Below are positions 35,766 to 42,906 of a stretch of DNA of 64,000 nt, piece by piece. The notes below the pieces were generated by a model. It worked only from the letters and a program-made list of their open reading frames with translations. It ran no database searches and had not been told where the DNA came from. Position 1 is the first letter of the stretch; each line of letters starts with the position of its first letter. Where the stretch lies: the NCBI RefSeq assembly GCF_004216915.1, contig NZ_SGXD01000002.1, positions 682,001 to 746,000 of the forward strand, written 5' to 3'. Both the position numbers and the translations under genes were made by a program. The stretch is from Motilibacter rhizosphaerae (GTDB lineage Bacteria > Actinomycetota > Actinomycetes > Motilibacterales > Motilibacteraceae).

Positions 35766-36809
35766 CTAGGCGCGGAGGCCCGCGCTCGACTCGCGGATGA
35801 CGAGCCGGTGCGGCACGACGACGGCCCGGGGTGGCGCGCTTCCAGGCGCGCCCCCCGGGCCGTCGCCGCGTCCGGCGGCGAGCCGCTGCTCCAGGCAGTC
35901 GGCCGCGGCGCGGGCGATCGCGGGCAGGTCGGGCGCGACCGTCGTCAGCGTCGGGATCGAGTAGCGGCCGTCCTCGATGTCGTCGAAGCCGACCAGCGCG
36001 ACGTCCTCGGGCACCCGCACCCCGCCCTCGTGGAGGGCGCGCAGGGCGCCGAGGGCGAGCTCGTCGGTGGAGCAGAACAGCGCGTCCACCGGCGTACGGG
36101 CCGCCAGCAGGGCGCGCACGGCCTCGGCCCCGGCCGCGCGGTGCAGCGAGGCGACGGGGAGCTCGAGCGCCGGGTCGCGCGGGAGCCCGGCGGCGGTGAG
36201 GGCGCGGGCCCAGCCCTCGAGGCGCAGCGCGGCGGTCTGCGTGCCGTACGCCGACCGGGCCCCCAGCGCGGCCACCCGGCGGCGCCCGCGCGCGACGAGG
36301 TGCGCCGTCGCCTCCTCGGCGGCGGCGACGTTGTCGACGACGACGTGGTCCGCGACGCGGGCGTCGCCCTGCTCGCCGAGCAGGACGAGCGGCGCGGGGT
36401 CCTGCCGGTCGCGCAGCTCGTCCGCGCCGAGGCCCCACGGGCTGAAGACGACCCCGTCGACGAGCTGGGCGCGGACGCCGTCGAGCAGCCGCCGCTCGCG
36501 CTGCGGGTCGCCGTGGGTCTGCTCGACGAGCAGCGTCCACCCGCGCTGCTCCGCCACTTCGCTGAGCTCGGCGGCCAGTGCGGAGAAGTACGGCGAGTCC
36601 ACCTCGGGCACCACGAGCGCCACGAGCCCGGAGCGGCCGCGCCGCAAGCTGCGCGCGGCGGCGTTCGGCCGGAACCCCAGCTCGCGCATCGCCTGCTCGA
36701 CGCGGGCGCGGGTCGCGGCCGCGACGTAGGGCGCGTCGTTGACGACGTTGGAGACGGTGCGGGGCGAGACCCCCGCCCGCTCGGCGACGTCGCGCATGCT
36801 CGGTCCCAC
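35766..36809 (-). CDS. LacI family transcriptional regulator
   Basis: 347-residue repressor. The DNA-binding head (MRDVAERAGVSPRTVSNVVNDAPYV, residues 5-29) and hinge helix NAAARSLRRG are followed by a periplasmic-binding-like sensor domain (about 62-347, GLVALVVPEVDSPYFSALAAEL). The GTG at 36809 has GGGAGGGGG upstream; an ATG lies four codons later. It is divergent from a phytanoyl-CoA dioxygenase-like gene, with a double palindromic operator between them, so it probably represses that gene and itself. Its sequence is close to the LacI protein at 46392-47402 (both read LVDGxxFSPxGxG), suggesting paralogues. Confidence 0.93.
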   Translation of the reverse strand: MGPSMRDVAERAGVSPRTVSNVVNDAPYVAAATRARVEQAMRELGFRPNAAARSLRRGRSGLVALVVPEVDSPYFSALAAELSEVAEQRGWTLLVEQTHGDPQRERRLLDGVRAQLVDGVVFSPWGLGADELRDRQDPAPLVLLGEQGDARVADHVVVDNVAAAEEATAHLVARGRRRVAALGARSAYGTQTAALRLEGWARALTAAGLPRDPALELPVASLHRAAGAEAVRALLAARTPVDALFCSTDELALGALRALHEGGVRVPEDVALVGFDDIEDGRYSIPTLTTVAPDLPAIARAAADCLEQRLAAGRGDGPGGAPGSAPPRAVVVPHRLVIRESSAGLRA

Positions 36810-36856
36810 CCGCCACCCCCTCCCGCCGTCGCGCCCATCGTGCCAGGCCGCCGCCT

Positions 36857-36885
36857 CTTGCCACGTGGCAATACCACGTGGCAAG
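36857..36885. promoter_or_regulatory. Tandem CACGTG-centred LacI operator
   Basis: CTTGCCACGTGG-CAATA-CCACGTGGCAAG: two perfect 12-bp arms around a 5-bp spacer. The left arm with its next bases forms TTGCCACGTGGCAA (36859-36872), a complete 14-bp palindrome with the central CG expected for LacI-family sites. The right arm repeats CCACGTGGCAA. Lies 47 bp from the LacI start and 34 bp from the dioxygenase start. Confidence 0.8.
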
Positions 36886-36919
36886 GTAGAGGGACCGCGA
36901 CCGAGGAGGAGCCCCGCCG

Positions 36920-37834
36920 ATGAGCGCACCGACCGTGCCCAGCGAGACCGTGCCTAGCGAGACCGTGCCCAGCGTGACCGTGACCCGCACCACGACCGAG
37001 CTCCCCGTCCCGCCGGGGGCCGACGACGAGGCGCGCGAGATCGTCCGGGCGCTCTACACCGACGGCATCACGGCGAAGAAGGGGGCCTTCAGCCGCGAGG
37101 CGACGGAGCGCATGCGCGAGGACATCGGCGTGGCGTTCGAGGAGGCGCGCAGCCGTCCCGGCGGAGCGGTCGGTCGCGGCCCCAAGCGCTACTACGTCGA
37201 GATCCACCCCGAGCAGCTGCGCGGCTTCGTCGAGATCGTCGACCACCCGTGGTTCCGCAAGGTCTCCGAGTCGGTGCTCGGCCCGGACTACCAGATCGTC
37301 GAGGTCGGCTTCGACATCCCGTTCGCGGGCGCGGTCAACCAGCCGTGGCACCGCGACTTCCCCATGCCGGACGCGACGCGGTTCGAGGGCCGGCTCACCA
37401 GCCTCGCCTTCAACCTCACCGCGGTCGACACCGAGGAGGACATGGGCCCCTTCGAGATCGCGCCGGGCACGCAGTGGGACTGGGCCGAGGACTTCGGCCA
37501 CGAGATGTTCCCGCCCAAGCCGTACTACCCGCGCTACGAGGAGCGGGCCGTGCGCAAGTACCCGCAGATGGGCGACATCTCCGCCCGCTCGGCGCTGACG
37601 ATCCACCGCGGCACCAAGAACTTCTCGGAGAAGTGGCGCCCGGTCCTCGTCATCGGCGTCGACGCCCCCGGCGCGGGCAACGCCGAGCACCACGACCTCG
37701 CGGTCACCCACGACTACTGGGAGCAGCTCCCCCCGTCGGTGCGCCAGCACCTCGGCTGCCCGGTCGTCGACGAGCTGACCCCGATCACGCAGAAGCACAC
37801 CATCGAGGGCCTGGTCATGGGCGAGGCCGACTAG
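36920..37834 (+). CDS. Phytanoyl-CoA dioxygenase family (PhyH) protein
   Basis: 304-residue Fe(II)/2-oxoglutarate-dependent oxygenase. The facial triad is His144 and Asp146 (QPWHRDFPMP) and His229 (ALTIHRGTKN), with Arg240 (EKWRPVL) for the 2-oxoglutarate carboxylate. Family members hydroxylate varied small molecules; the substrate is unknown here. Control by a LacI-type regulator hints at a sugar-like or sugar-derived inducer (inference). The N-terminal 22 residues consist of a VPSET repeat. The ATG follows GAGGAGGAG. Confidence 0.9.
   Translation: MSAPTVPSETVPSETVPSVTVTRTTTELPVPPGADDEAREIVRALYTDGITAKKGAFSREATERMREDIGVAFEEARSRPGGAVGRGPKRYYVEIHPEQLRGFVEIVDHPWFRKVSESVLGPDYQIVEVGFDIPFAGAVNQPWHRDFPMPDATRFEGRLTSLAFNLTAVDTEEDMGPFEIAPGTQWDWAEDFGHEMFPPKPYYPRYEERAVRKYPQMGDISARSALTIHRGTKNFSEKWRPVLVIGVDAPGAGNAEHHDLAVTHDYWEQLPPSVRQHLGCPVVDELTPITQKHTIEGLVMGEAD
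36935..36979 (+). repeat. Three 15-bp tandem repeats at the start of the PhyH-like gene
   Basis: Units GTGCCCAGCGAGACC (36935-36949), the same with one change (36950-36964), and again with one change (36965-36979). Encodes VPSET-VPSET-VPSVT, in frame, in the non-conserved N-terminal tail. Confidence 0.95.
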
Positions 37835-37905
37835 GGGTCGGTGGGCGGACTGCCGGCTGCTCGAGGACGCTCCCCAGGAGATCGCCGAGGAGATCTTGTC
37901 CTGGC

Positions 37906-37932
37906 TGTCGATCCGGCGGCAGGCTGTTCGTC
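37906..37932 (+). promoter_or_regulatory. Candidate ECF42-type promoter ahead of the DGPF gene
   Basis: TGTCGA (37906-37911), 17 bp, then CGTC (37929-37932). This matches the bipartite consensus I recall for ECF42 sigma factors (TGTCGA at -35 and CG[A/T]C at -10). It lies 56 bp upstream of the DGPF-domain gene whose downstream neighbour encodes an ECF42-like sigma factor, the expected autoregulated target. The rest of the 154-bp gap (37835-37988) holds the CAGGAGG ribosome-binding site and nothing else I can name. Confidence 0.65.
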
Positions 37933-37988
37933 GTCGCTGGTGACGAGCCGGACAGGCCGGCCCGTGACCCAGTGCAGGAGGCACCGCC

Positions 37989-38348
37989 ATGGCCAAGTAC
38001 GCGATCCTCATCTACGACGACCCGGCCGGCTACGCGAGCATGTCGCCCGAGGCGTGGAGCGCGGTGGTCGATGCGCACAGCGTGTTCGTCAAGCAGGTCT
38101 TCGAGCTCGGTGGGTCCCTGGCGGGCGGGGAGGCACTGGCTAACACGACGACGGCCACCTCGATCAGGGGCGGGAGCACGGTCACGGACGGCCCCTTCCT
38201 CGAGACCAAGGAGGCCCTCGGCGGCTTCTACGTCGTCGAAGCCCGCGACCTCGACCACGCCCTGGAGATCGCCAAGGGGTGCCCGGCCCCCTTCGGGGGC
38301 GTCGAGGTCCGCCCGGTCGTGGACCCGACGCAGGCCAACCCGTTCTGA
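37989..38348 (+). CDS. YciI/DGPF-domain protein
   Basis: 119-residue protein starting MAKYAILIYDDPAGYASMSPE and containing VTDGPFLETKEALGGFYVVEARDLDHALEIA, the DGPF signature of the YCII-related family. These small alpha/beta proteins are typical targets and neighbours of ECF42 sigma factors; their biochemical role is unknown. CAGGAGG precedes the ATG. It overlaps or abuts the sigma factor gene downstream. Confidence 0.93.
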   Translation: MAKYAILIYDDPAGYASMSPEAWSAVVDAHSVFVKQVFELGGSLAGGEALANTTTATSIRGGSTVTDGPFLETKEALGGFYVVEARDLDHALEIAKGCPAPFGGVEVRPVVDPTQANPF

Positions 38349-39643
38349 CCGCTCCTCGCGACGAGCCGACCGCGTCCGCCGGACAGGCGGACGCGGTCGC
38401 TGCCGCGCTCGCGCAGGCCCACCGCTCCGAGTGGGCCTTCGTGCTGTCCGCCACGGTGCGCGTCGCCGGCGACCTCGACCTCGCGGAGGAGTGCGCGCAG
38501 GAGGCGTACGTCAGCGCGCTGCGGTCCTGGACCCGGGACGGCGTCCCGGCGCGGCCCGGCGCGTGGCTCACCACGGCGGCGCGGAACCAGGCGCTGGACC
38601 GGTTGCGGCGCGACGCCACCCTGCGGCGCAAGCTCCCGCTGCTCGTGGAGCCGGCGAGCGTCGACCCGGACGACGCTGACGAGCTGGACCGGCCCGACGA
38701 CGCGGTGCCCGACGACCGGCTCCGGCTGGTGTTCACCTGCTGCCACCCCGCCCTCGCCCCCGAGGCCCGGGTCGCCCTCACCCTGCGCCTGGTGTGCGGC
38801 GTCCCCACGTCGGACGTCGCCCGGGCCTTCCTCGTGCCCGAGCCGACGATGGCGGCGCGGATCACCCGGGCCAAGAAGAAGATCGCCGCCGCCCGGATCC
38901 CCTACCGAGTGCCCGGCCGGGCAGAGCTGCCCGAGCGCCTGGACAGCGTGCTCACCGCCGTGCACCTGCTCTTCAGCACCGGCCACACCGCCGGCCAGGG
39001 GGACGCTCTCGTCCGCGAGGAGCTCTGCGACCGGGCCCTGCACTTGGCGCGCGCTCTCGCCGCCCTGCTCCCCGAGCAGGCCGAGGCCCGCGGCCTGCTG
39101 GGCCTGCTGCTCCTCACCGACGCGCGCCGCGCCACGCGGACCGACGAGCAGGGCCGTCTGCTCCTCCTCGCCGACCAGGACCGCACGCGCTGGGACCAGC
39201 GCGCGGTCCTCGAGGGGCTCACGGTGACGGCCGGTGCGCTGGCGTCCGGCCCGCCGGGGCGGTTCACCCTCCAGGCGGCGATCGCCGGCGTGCACGCGGT
39301 CGCGCCGTCTCTGGAGCAGACCGACTGGCCGCGCGTCGTGCACCTCTACGACCGGCTGCTGGCGGTGTGGGGCACGCCGGTGGTCGCGCTCAACCGGGCC
39401 GCGGCCGTGGCCTTCGCCGACGGTCCGGCCGCCGCCCTGCCGCTCCTCGACGAGCTGGCGACGGACCCCCGGCTCGCCGACTACCCGTACCTCCCCGCCA
39501 CCCGCGCCGACCTGCTTCGCCGCCTCGGCGACGCCGCCGGCGCGGCCGTCGCCTACCGGCGCGCGCTCGAGCTCACGGCGAACGCCGCGGAGCGCGCCTT
39601 CCTGCGGCAGCGCCTGGCCGAGGTCAGCAGCGCGGAGCGGTGA
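38279..39643 (+). CDS. ECF-type sigma factor, ECF42 group (long C-terminal TPR-like extension)
   Basis: Sigma region 2 (from about 38400, HRSEWAFVLSATVRVAGDLDLAEECAQEAYVSAL) and region 4 (TLRLVCGVPTSDVARAFLVPEPTMAARITRAKKKI) are followed by a 200-residue helical extension with VHLLFSTGH, LLLLTDARRATR, and a terminal ALNRAAAVAFADG repeat-like part, the ECF42 hallmark. There is no anti-sigma gene. The start is uncertain: GTG 38279 overlaps the DGPF gene by 70 bp and adds a Gly/Arg/Pro tail that looks non-coding; a CTG at 38345, overlapping the TGA, is the alternative. It should direct transcription of the DGPF gene. Confidence 0.88.
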   Translation: MPGPLRGRRGPPGRGPDAGQPVLTAPRDEPTASAGQADAVAAALAQAHRSEWAFVLSATVRVAGDLDLAEECAQEAYVSALRSWTRDGVPARPGAWLTTAARNQALDRLRRDATLRRKLPLLVEPASVDPDDADELDRPDDAVPDDRLRLVFTCCHPALAPEARVALTLRLVCGVPTSDVARAFLVPEPTMAARITRAKKKIAAARIPYRVPGRAELPERLDSVLTAVHLLFSTGHTAGQGDALVREELCDRALHLARALAALLPEQAEARGLLGLLLLTDARRATRTDEQGRLLLLADQDRTRWDQRAVLEGLTVTAGALASGPPGRFTLQAAIAGVHAVAPSLEQTDWPRVVHLYDRLLAVWGTPVVALNRAAAVAFADGPAAALPLLDELATDPRLADYPYLPATRADLLRRLGDAAGAAVAYRRALELTANAAERAFLRQRLAEVSSAER

Positions 39644-41481
39644 CGCGCCTCTCCTCCGGCATCGCGCGGCGCGATGCGGGTACGCCCCCGCCCGTGACCC
39701 GACCCCGCCGTGACGCCGACGGCTACGCACCGCTGCGCTCGTACGCCGGGATCGGGGACGGTCGCTCGGTCGCCCTCATCGCCCTCGACGGCAGCGTCGA
39801 CTGGTGGGCGGTGCCCGGCATGGACGGCATCCTCGCCTGCGCGGCCCTGCTCGACCCCGAGCACGGCGGCCGGTTCCTGCTGGCCCCGCTGGACGACTAC
39901 GAGGCCGAGCGCGAGCACGTCGGGGACACCAACGTCGTCAGCACGACGTACACCACGGCCGGGGGCACGGTGCGGGTCACCGACGCGATGAACACCGGCG
40001 TGGCCGGCCGCCTGCCGTGGGCGGAGCTCGCCCGGCGGGTCGAGGGCCTCAGCGGGCGCGTGCGCATGGGCTGGCGGTTCGAGCCGGGGACCTCGCTCGG
40101 CACGCTGAGCCCGTGGTCGGAGGTCCGCAGCGGTGACGTCCTCGTGCACCTCGACGACCTCGTCCTGGGCCTGCGCTGCGGCGACGTCGGCGAGCCCGAG
40201 GCCGGGGACCGCCTCGTGCAGGGCGGGTTCGAGACGAGCGAGGGCTCGCGCCACCTGCTGGCCGTCGTGGGGACGCAGGGCGAGCCGACCCACCTGCCGG
40301 ACCCGCGCGCCGTCGACGAGCGGATCGACCGGACCGTGCGCGGCTGGCAGGACTGGTCGCGCTCCGTGCACTGGGACGGGCCCTGGCCCGACGCCGTGCA
40401 GCGCAGCCTGCTCGCGCTCAAGCTGCTCGTGTCCGCGCCGACGGGCGCCATCGCCGCGGCCGCCACGCTCGGGCTGCCGGAGCGCGTCGGCGGGGACAAG
40501 AACTACGACTACCGCTACACGTGGGTGCGGGACGCGGCGTACACCCTCGACGCCTTCCTGCGCTGCGGGCTCGCGGAGGAGGTCCACGCCGCGGTCGCGT
40601 GGCTGCTCGCCACCGTCGAGCGCCACCGGCCGGAGCTGCGGCCGTTCTACACCCTCGCCGGCGAGCCGCCCGGCGGCAGCGCGGTGCGCGACGTGCCCGG
40701 CTACCGCCGCAGCACCCCGGTCAAGCAGGGCAACGACGCGCGTACGCAGCTGCAGCTCGGGCCGTACGGCGACCTGTTCCAGACGGTCTTCCTCTGCGTC
40801 GACGACGGCCACGTCCTGGACGTGGGGACCGCACGGCTGCTCGCCGACCTCGCCGACCGCTGCTGCGACCTGTGGCAGCGCCCGGACGCGGGGATGTGGG
40901 AGCTCCACGAGGAGCAGCACTTCACCCTGTCGAAGATGAGCTGCTGGCAGGCGCTCGACCGCGCCGCCCGCCTCGCCGAGCGCGGGGAGCTGGCGGGCAG
41001 CGGGGAGCGGTGGCGCCGGGAGGCCGACCGGGTCCGTGCCTGGGTCGACGAGCACTGCTGGTCGGAGGAGCGCGGCGCGTACGTCATGGCGGCCGGCTCG
41101 GACGAGCTCGACGCCGGGATCCTGCTGGGAGCGCGCTTCGGCTTCGACCGGGGCCCCCGGATGCGCTCGACCGTGGACGCCGTCCTCGCCGAGCTGGGCA
41201 GCGGGCCGTGGGTGCACCGCTACACCTCCGCCAGTGACGAGGAGGGCGCGTTCCTCGCCTGCACGTTCTGGGTGGTGGAGGCCCTCGCCCTCACCGGGGA
41301 CGTCCCCCGGGCGCGCGCGCTGATGGACCGCACGCTGGGCGAGCTCGACGGGACCTGGCTGCTCGCGGAGATGGTCGACCCGCGGACCGGCGACTACCTC
41401 GGGAACCTGCCGCAGGCCCTCTCGCACCTCGCGCTGATCAACGCGGCGAGCGCCGTGCGGGAGGCCGAGGAGGGGCGCTGA
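39640..41481 (+). CDS. Glycoside hydrolase family 15 protein (glucoamylase/trehalase-like)
   Basis: 613 residues. An N-terminal beta-sandwich (about 25-270; YAPLRSYAGIGDGRSVALIALDGSVDWWAVP in parts) precedes the (alpha/alpha)6 catalytic barrel, with DYRYTWVRDAAYTLDAFL (substrate-contact Trp-Val-Arg-Asp) and WELHEEQHFTLSKMSCWQALDRA (catalytic Glu region). Members of this cytoplasmic bacterial branch include trehalases and isomaltose-type enzymes. I give the GTG that overlaps the sigma factor stop as GTGA; the GTG at 39694 is an alternative, closer to the conserved start. Its link to the ECF42 unit is positional. The 3' end overlaps the convergent PAP2 gene by 44 bp. Confidence 0.9.
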   Translation: MTRLSSGIARRDAGTPPPVTRPRRDADGYAPLRSYAGIGDGRSVALIALDGSVDWWAVPGMDGILACAALLDPEHGGRFLLAPLDDYEAEREHVGDTNVVSTTYTTAGGTVRVTDAMNTGVAGRLPWAELARRVEGLSGRVRMGWRFEPGTSLGTLSPWSEVRSGDVLVHLDDLVLGLRCGDVGEPEAGDRLVQGGFETSEGSRHLLAVVGTQGEPTHLPDPRAVDERIDRTVRGWQDWSRSVHWDGPWPDAVQRSLLALKLLVSAPTGAIAAAATLGLPERVGGDKNYDYRYTWVRDAAYTLDAFLRCGLAEEVHAAVAWLLATVERHRPELRPFYTLAGEPPGGSAVRDVPGYRRSTPVKQGNDARTQLQLGPYGDLFQTVFLCVDDGHVLDVGTARLLADLADRCCDLWQRPDAGMWELHEEQHFTLSKMSCWQALDRAARLAERGELAGSGERWRREADRVRAWVDEHCWSEERGAYVMAAGSDELDAGILLGARFGFDRGPRMRSTVDAVLAELGSGPWVHRYTSASDEEGAFLACTFWVVEALALTGDVPRARALMDRTLGELDGTWLLAEMVDPRTGDYLGNLPQALSHLALINAASAVREAEEGR

Positions 41482-42157
41482 GCGCCTCGCGCACCGAGGC
41501 GCGGTCCTGTCGCACGGCCGGCAGGAGGAGCAGCCCGGTCGTCGACCCCAGCCAGAGCAGCCCGAGCAGCCCGCCGGCGAGCACGTCGCTCAGGTGGTGG
41601 AAGCCGCGGTACATCCGGCAGAGGCCGACCGCGGGCGGCAGCACGACCGCGAGCCCCGTCAGCACGACCTGGAGCCAGCGCAGGCGGGTGAGCACGAGGG
41701 CGAGGACCGCGAGGCCGCCGTAGAAGCAGATGGAGGCCGCCACGTGCCCGGAGGGGTAGCTCGCGTGCGGGTCCCCGACGCCGAGCCGCGGGATGCTCGG
41801 GCGGTCGCGCGGGACGAACGTGCTCGCGACGAAGTAGATCCCGCTCTCGACGCCGACGGTCAGCGCGAGGAACAGCGGGGGCAGCACCCTCCGCGTCGCC
41901 ACCGCCAGCGCGACGACGAGCACGACCAGGGCGACCTCGATGGTCGTGGGCTCCGCGAGCTGGGTGCCGGCGTAGGTGAGGGAGTCCCACGTCGGGGTGC
42001 GGTGGTGCAGGAGCGCGCGCTCGATCGCGTCGTCGGTCCGGCCCACCCACCCGTGGACCAGGACGTGGGTGAGCAGCTCGCCCAGCACCAGCACCAGCAC
42101 GAACACCGCGACCGCGGCGCCGGCCAGGCGGGCGGCGACCCGCACCCGGGCGCTCAC
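41438..42157 (-). CDS. PAP2 family phosphatase (first)
   Basis: 239-residue membrane phosphatase with about six hydrophobic segments. The three lipid-phosphatase motifs are RDRPSIP (C1), YPSGHVAAS (C2, catalytic His) and RMYRGFHHLSDVLAG (C3, catalytic His-Asp). Probable substrates are phosphatidic acid, phosphatidylglycerol phosphate or undecaprenyl pyrophosphate. The GTG overlaps the stop of the second PAP2 gene (GTGA). Last gene of the DUF1206-DAG kinase-PAP2-PAP2 operon. Confidence 0.9.
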   Translation of the reverse strand: MSARVRVAARLAGAAVAVFVLVLVLGELLTHVLVHGWVGRTDDAIERALLHHRTPTWDSLTYAGTQLAEPTTIEVALVVLVVALAVATRRVLPPLFLALTVGVESGIYFVASTFVPRDRPSIPRLGVGDPHASYPSGHVAASICFYGGLAVLALVLTRLRWLQVVLTGLAVVLPPAVGLCRMYRGFHHLSDVLAGGLLGLLWLGSTTGLLLLPAVRQDRASVREALSAPPRPPARRSPR

Positions 42158-42906
42158 CGCTGCACCTCGCGGCGTACGGGCTCGCCGGCTTCGAGCCCCT
42201 CCGTCAGGGGGCGCACGGGGGCGTGCAGGTCGCGGCGCCAGGCGCGGAAGGCGGCGGTGGTCGCCGCCAGCCACGACGCGCCCAGCAGCCAGCCGCCGAC
42301 GACGTCGCTCACGTAGTGCACCCCCAGGGCGATGCGGGCGAAGCCCACGAGGAGCACGACGGCGACGCCGAGCGCGATGAGCGGGCGCCGAGCGCGCCGC
42401 GGCACGGCGGGCAGGCCGACGAGCAGCAGCGCCCCGACGCCGACGACCGAGCCGAGGGCGTGGCCCGAGGGGAAGCTCCAGCTGTGCAGGACGAGGACCG
42501 GGTGGTCGAAGCTCGGCCGCGAGCGCCGCACGAGCTCCTTGACCAGCGTGTCCAGGGGGTCGCTGAGCAGGACCGTCAGCGCGAGCCACAGGGCCAGCCG
42601 GGGCGCCCGGCGCAGCAGCAGGACGACCGCCACGACGACCGCGACCACCTCGAAGGAGGTCGGGCTGAAGACGTCGGACACCCCCTCGAGGAAGCGCACG
42701 AGCGCCCGCGAGCCCACCGCCTGCCGGTGCAGGCCGGAGGCGACGTCGAGGTCCAGCCGCCGCAGCGGGCTCCACCGGTCGCGCACCGCCAGCAGCGCCA
42801 GGGCGAACGGCACGAGCACGACGAAGGCCGCGGCCACGGCGAGCGTGAGGCGCAGCCCGCCGCGCGAGTCGGGGTCGAGGCGGGCGCCCAGCCTCGTCGA
42901 TCTCAC
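42154..42906 (-). CDS. PAP2 family phosphatase (second)
   Basis: 250-residue membrane phosphatase. Motifs are KELVRRSRPSF (C1), SFPSGHALGS (C2) and RIALGVHYVSDVVGG (C3), with about six hydrophobic segments and an active site facing outward by family topology. It differs enough from its neighbour to suggest distinct substrates, not a recent duplication. It lies 10 bp after the diacylglycerol kinase-like gene and is coupled to the next PAP2 gene. Confidence 0.92.
   Translation of the reverse strand: MRSTRLGARLDPDSRGGLRLTLAVAAAFVVLVPFALALLAVRDRWSPLRRLDLDVASGLHRQAVGSRALVRFLEGVSDVFSPTSFEVVAVVVAVVLLLRRAPRLALWLALTVLLSDPLDTLVKELVRRSRPSFDHPVLVLHSWSFPSGHALGSVVGVGALLLVGLPAVPRRARRPLIALGVAVVLLVGFARIALGVHYVSDVVGGWLLGASWLAATTAAFRAWRRDLHAPVRPLTEGLEAGEPVRREVQR

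Follow-up and report, generated by a model that had tools for sequence, protein, structure and literature searches.

The locus examined here raises the question of whether a predicted ECF42 promoter, the DGPF and sigma factor genes behind it and a glycosidase gene that follows on the same strand belong to one regulatory unit, and how such a unit would have come to lie in the genome of Motilibacter rhizosphaerae. We addressed this in a window of 64,000 nucleotides of contig NZ_SGXD01000002.1, in the coordinates of which the features are given (Table 1). ECF42 promoters are said, after Liu et al. in 2018, to follow the consensus TGTCGA / CGWC with a spacer of 16-17 nt, and ECF42 sigma factors reportedly have a DGPF protein as their partner.

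A preliminary description of this DNA had reported TGTCGA-N17-CGTC in front of a DGPF-ECF42 pair; the motif was present as described, and both genes were confirmed by Pfam. The sigma factor had the class features of ECF42, namely PF04542 and PF08281 above cut-off and no further sigma region, followed by a C-terminal extension of about 250 residues past region 4 that matched DUF6596 (E 6.4e-29). No anti-sigma gene was located beside the sigma gene, the neighbors being the PhyH, YCII and GH15 genes and two PAP2 genes, and beyond the PhyH gene on the left Pfam identified a LacI-type regulator gene.

Table 1. Features of the DGPF-ECF42 locus and its neighbors, in window coordinates.
Feature	Position	Strand	Remarks
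Predicted ECF42 promoter TGTCGATCCGGCGGCAGGCTGTTCGTC	37906-37932	+	Spacer 17; 83 bp 5′ of DGPF ATG
-35 element TGTCGA of predicted ECF42 promoter	37906-37911	+	Invariant in 8/8 block copies
17-nt spacer	37912-37928	+	Invariant columns 10/17 across 8 copies
-10 element CGTC	37929-37932	+	Invariant in 8/8 copies
Predicted 5′ untranslated region; ribosome-binding site GGAGG	37933-37988	+	Invariant columns 37/57 (8 copies)
DGPF / YCII-domain protein, 119 aa	37989-38348	+	PF03795, E 2.2e-19
ECF42-type sigma factor	38345-39643	+	Sigma70_r2, Sigma70_r4_2, DUF6596; CTG start most likely
DNA block common to other actinobacteria	37891-39633	+	88-91% identity, flanks unrelated
GH15 glycosidase gene	39694-41481	+	PF00723, E 3.4e-48; alternative start GTG 39640
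PhyH-family dioxygenase, left neighbor	36920-37834	+	PF05721, E 3e-9

The most likely start of the sigma gene, the CTG at 38345, overlaps the DGPF stop codon (CTGA), with a GTG at 38279 as the alternative. CTG was found at this junction in the window copy and in all but one of the six named copies in its group, while in a survey of 72 named loci (3 further were set aside as odd) NTGA overlaps between the sigma frame and the DGPF stop occurred in 52 pairs, comprising 24 GTG, 7 ATG and 21 CTG. Additionally, no in-frame ATG, GTG or TTG was present close before the conserved N-terminus in L136, L142, L145, L150, L155, L156, L158, L163, L166 and L174. These arrangements point to a sigma factor whose translation would start at CTG in coupling with the DGPF stop, or that would arise from a frameshift fusion, and the recurrent CTG/TGA junction bears on how the sigma factor is made.

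With respect to the motif, counts alone gave no significance and were rejected as an argument, being near expectation in the window, where TGTCGA-N16/17-CGWC occurred 3 times against 1.75 expected (25 of 100 shuffles reached 3), and below the reversed control in the whole genome, where TGTCGN-N17-CGWC gave 39 matches against 51. So common a pattern is what one would expect had the motif arisen by chance, with the DGPF-ECF42 pair transcribed from another promoter. Its significance derives instead from its position before DGPF genes. Four of the 39 genome matches preceded YCII genes, and 3 of these 4 lay before DGPF-ECF42 pairs; the fourth such pair in the genome, which encoded four DUF6596 sigma factors in total, each adjoining one of seven YCII matches, had TGTCGT-N17-CGTG upstream. 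The search before other DGPF genes that had been proposed at the outset revealed the motif again across five genomes of the order, with TGTCG[A/T]-N17-CG[A/T]N located 71-103 bp 5′ of the DGPF start in all 15 testable pairs. A 16th pair, outside the scripted test because its protein was without the DGP motif, read TGTCGA-N17-CGCT by eye.

The same position specificity held among named actinobacteria, for which 75 of the 80 loci from the genome scan were counted, having a DGPF match and sufficient upstream DNA (4 without a DGPF match and 1 truncated locus were dropped). TGTCGN-N16..18-CGWC was found at -115..-20 in 53 of these 75 pairs, compared with 3 of 742 control windows placed further upstream, and a slightly wider pattern with N17 in a 200-bp window was found in 41 of 75 compared with 4 of 516 controls; the motif as searched was absent from 22 of the 75. 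Moreover, in an alignment of eight copies of the DNA block described below, all 10 columns of the promoter elements were invariant, while the spacer varied and third codon positions were invariant in 268 of 420 cases, a level at which the 5′ untranslated stretch was about as conserved. Ahead of the -35 element, only 9 of 85 columns were invariant in the two stretches between -95 and -10, which, set against the invariant promoter, indicates that the homology common to all copies starts at the promoter. Both the recurrence at one position before DGPF genes and the invariance of the two elements argue against a chance match, which we consider very improbable; from these comparisons the predicted promoter before the DGPF-sigma pair is very probably real.

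Several further observations concerned motif variants and other sites. At named loci with a spacer of 16, CGAC was the -10 element in 9 of 10 (L110, L111, L114, L116, L119, L122, L130, L140 and L144, with L147 as the exception), and at those with a spacer of 17 CGTC was present in 40 of 41. Spacer length and the -10 element may therefore co-vary with sigma subgroup, yet pairs with N17 and CGAC exist in the family. An orphan YCII gene elsewhere in the genome (C5:260871-261270, locus L022) had TGTCGA-N17-CGAC in front and no DUF6596 sigma gene nearby, and is a candidate for regulation in trans by one of the four ECF42 factors. For other TGTCG-N17-CGWC sites in the genome, 12 of 20 stretches were gene-called, and all but one site fell inside crudely called genes; since the three accepted promoter sites also fall inside such calls, the script cannot judge further targets.

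Identity among the sigma factors set the window copy and a few others apart. Its six closest named relatives, from Cryobacterium adonitolivorans, C. aureum, Nocardioides zhouii, Mycolicibacterium hodleri, Rhodococcus sp. IEGM 1381 and Kineococcus rubinsiae, were 90-92% identical as proteins, and the next best was 69% identical. The DNA common to the window and each named copy comprised only about 37887-39649, at 88-91% identity, while the two Cryobacterium, the Nocardioides and the Mycolicibacterium copies had among themselves a block of about 1.92-1.99 kb at 93-96%. Flanks were unrelated in every copy, and the two Cryobacterium copies were also without common flanks. A congener (G001) carried 37891-39633 at 89%; the only other homology to the window within the surrounding 19.5 kb was a second, distant ECF42 pair. 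The two pairs face each other within about 5 kb (L061 6233-11200), and the sigma factor of the second is about 50% identical to that of the block copy. In that genome the LacI-PhyH pair, the DGPF-ECF42 block and the nearest GH15 relative were on three different contigs, and homology to the window on the PhyH side ended at the PhyH stop codon, 37834. The block was rare. In a class sample of 393 genomes it was present in 2, which both belong to the genus of the window, at identities of at least 89%, and in a phylum sample of 396 the only carriers were the window's own genome, at high identity, and a genome from a different class, at 75%, the latter again having TGTCGATCC with N17 and CGAC.

Divergence at fourfold sites showed that the copies share a common ancestor younger than the separation of the two congeners. 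Identity between the window sigma gene and the six foreign copies at these sites was 0.79-0.85 (0.76 to the congener's copy), compared with 0.66, 0.62 and 0.59 between the congeners for PhyH, LacI and GH15, respectively; to the nearest other named sigma gene and to its own nearest paralogue it was 0.52-0.53. That foreign copies are more alike than neighboring genes of congeners argues for a recently transferred, self-contained unit. When 96 sigma factors were placed in a tree by a quick method, the eight copies grouped as a single long-stemmed clade (SH-aLRT 100), within which the window and congener copies were not each other's nearest; the Rhodococcus record was tagged with a cyanobacterial family, which was taken as a name clash. 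Copies of about 90% identity could be thought to stem from vertical inheritance with strong conservation, or from contamination of the assemblies, all hosts being actinobacteria and the sigma protein being constrained (second codon positions invariant in 386 of 420 cases). The fourfold-site identities, far above those between congeneric neighbors, are at odds with this, as are the named copies, which lie between unrelated flanks on contigs ranging from 36 kb to 2.1 Mb and differ from one another by 4-12%, and we hold either explanation to be highly improbable. Rather, promoter, DGPF gene and sigma factor gene appear to have moved as one small unit between distantly related soil bacteria. The earlier promoter reading of the DGPF-ECF42 pair was supported by comparison, while the transferred nature of the block was not visible from the sequence alone.

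We then considered block ends and possible carriers. Block ends varied from copy to copy; no terminal repeats matched them among the longest repeat pairs listed for four copies, no target-site duplications were found there by eye, and the block contained only the DGPF and sigma genes, with no transposase of its own. Some flanks do suggest mobile DNA. That of C. aureum encoded HipA, a helix-turn-helix protein, an ArdC-type domain and a TraG/TraD coupling-protein domain, that of Nocardioides an IS110-type transposase, and in Mycolicibacterium and Rhodococcus fragments of an rve_3 integrase-core transposase were located on opposite sides of the block, no further than about 0.3 kb from it, the match in Rhodococcus being just below the curated cut-off. 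As DNA, these two fragments (L098 7632-7997 and L099 5174-5461) were 88% identical.

Phages and plasmids as carriers of the block were rejected. No copy was present in viral_contigs, phages giving two distant matches, and plasmids had none at about 90%, with one record at 80-90% in its best place, 73 at 60-80%, and plasmid-encoded proteins at most about 60% identical among the matches listed. Our guess is that transfer could have occurred by plasmid- or IS-assisted recombination. A literature search among open-licence papers returned none on ECF42 transfer, which may be described elsewhere, apart from a general proposal, in PMC11119718, of horizontal transfer as the route by which DUF6596 sigma factors spread out of Actinobacteria; the term 'ECF42' in PMC12206764 designates a strain, not the sigma group. 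The proposal likewise suggests transfer of the DUF6596 domain, but the portion available concerns the level of the domain and exchange between phyla, and has no unit, promoter or recent event.

In the case of the GH15 gene, a domain match of 165 bits to PF00723 (cut-off 22) identified the family. An assignment as an archaeal TreH1/TreH2-type trehalase equivalog was discarded, scores against the NCBIfam models being far under the cut-offs (229.9 bits against 820 for TreH1, 183.8 against 1000 for TreH2), and phmmer gave no match to the PDB. It had been claimed that this gene overlaps the sigma stop and extends the DGPF-ECF42 unit, which was taken as a hint of a carbohydrate link. The overlap holds only if GTG 39640 is the start, GTG 39694 being equally possible; DNA homology with three GH15 relatives starts only at 39700-39718. 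No support emerged for such a link. A survey of GH15 genes beside ECF42, also proposed in the preliminary description, gave no tblastn match at the 80 named loci, covered with flanks of 6 kb where present, or in 15 family stretches (14 with other ECF42 pairs and one, L022, with the orphan YCII gene), in a search that detects only fairly close GH15 relatives, as it missed a Pfam GH15 gene in L022 (C5:256155); more distant GH15 genes possibly lie beside ECF42 elsewhere. GH15 relatives were located apart from ECF42 in all three family genomes that have them, the congener among these. For a conserved GH15 member of an ECF42 carbohydrate-response unit to be inferred, there is adjacency on the same strand in one genome, set against the empty survey and the separate relatives in three genomes, and we regard this explanation as extremely improbable. 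The GH15 gene is best read as a chance neighbor where the block landed, or as a later arrival.

Arrival beside the unit could nevertheless have consequences for the gene, in that sigma-dependent read-through might have made GH15 a new ECF42 target here, a capture that is compatible with recent transfer of the unit. The same orientation, the gap of 0-50 bp and the 3′ end of the unit, trimmed within the last sigma codons relative to the other copies, are consistent with this, as is a simple scan of 36800-42200 in which no terminator-like site was found, although GC-rich DNA makes such a scan crude. Relatives of GH15 in other places have no ECF42 beside them, and the read-through is a prediction from sequence; capture is a tentative proposal that we consider somewhat unlikely.

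Taken as a whole, the locus is with high probability a self-contained, self-activating ECF42 unit that recently moved between orders of Actinomycetes and landed beside GH15. RNA polymerase with the ECF42 sigma factor would recognize TGTCGA-N17-CGTC at 37906-37932, and transcription of the DGPF and sigma genes from that promoter would constitute a positive feedback loop, with translation of the sigma factor probably coupled to that of DGPF. The C-terminal extension, not an anti-sigma factor, would set sigma activity, basal expression being amplified once a signal reaches the extension, probably through contact with a protein. Since the promoter, its target and the sigma gene all lie within 1.75 kb, the unit could work wherever it lands, and it would have been inserted here, after a recent move between orders of Actinomycetes, between the PhyH and GH15 genes. 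A bolder version, in which 1.75 kb of DNA that needs only the host core RNA polymerase acts as a portable feedback switch and turns the gene behind it (here GH15) into an ECF42 target, we consider doubtful and unlikely.

Characterized ECF42 systems resemble this scheme in part. Among them are Sven_0747, Sven_4377 and Sven_7131 of Streptomyces venezuelae, and for the group as a whole PMC8999054 states that activity requires the C-terminal extension and that control is proposed to act by protein interaction. The window locus has in common with these Sigma2/sigma4 regions with a long C-terminal extension, a DGPF neighbor, the TGTCGA/CGWC promoter with a spacer of 16-17 and the lack of an anti-sigma gene, but differs in that its group retains about 90% DNA identity across several orders with unrelated flanks. 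In Sinorhizobium meliloti, a YCII gene (SMc01151) likewise precedes the gene for an ECF42 factor, RpoE10, and has a similar motif, and RpoE10 targets carry TGTCGG-N17-CGTC (PMC6180224, Table 1); agreement with these motifs, together with the comparisons above, supports well the earlier claim of an ECF42 promoter placed for DGPF autoregulation. In contrast to the window, however, the S. meliloti motif overlaps the putative SMc01151 start, and, in the results available from that paper, RpoE10 overexpression did not raise SMc01151, while glyoxalase-like genes elsewhere were among the responsive targets (PMC6180224). Autoregulation may thus fail even where the motif is present.

A second mobile arrangement was seen on plasmids of Pseudomonas and Acinetobacter (L207 and L208), where an ECF42 gene, two YciI genes, and VOC-family and MATE efflux genes were colocated, with a recombinase gene adjoining in L207 and the same protein accessions in the two genera. 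Here too ECF42 and YciI genes lie together, on a mobile carrier, but the proteins are about 51% identical to those of the window, the sigma gene comes first, and the cluster is a larger one with VOC and efflux genes.

ECF42 sigma factors are abundant and poorly understood. The locus cautions against inferring their function from the genes that adjoin such units. The transfer argues that the DGPF product brings a benefit of its own, independent of host context, and the move of a unit between orders, promoter included, amounts to a natural test, in different hosts, that its three parts are sufficient for function.
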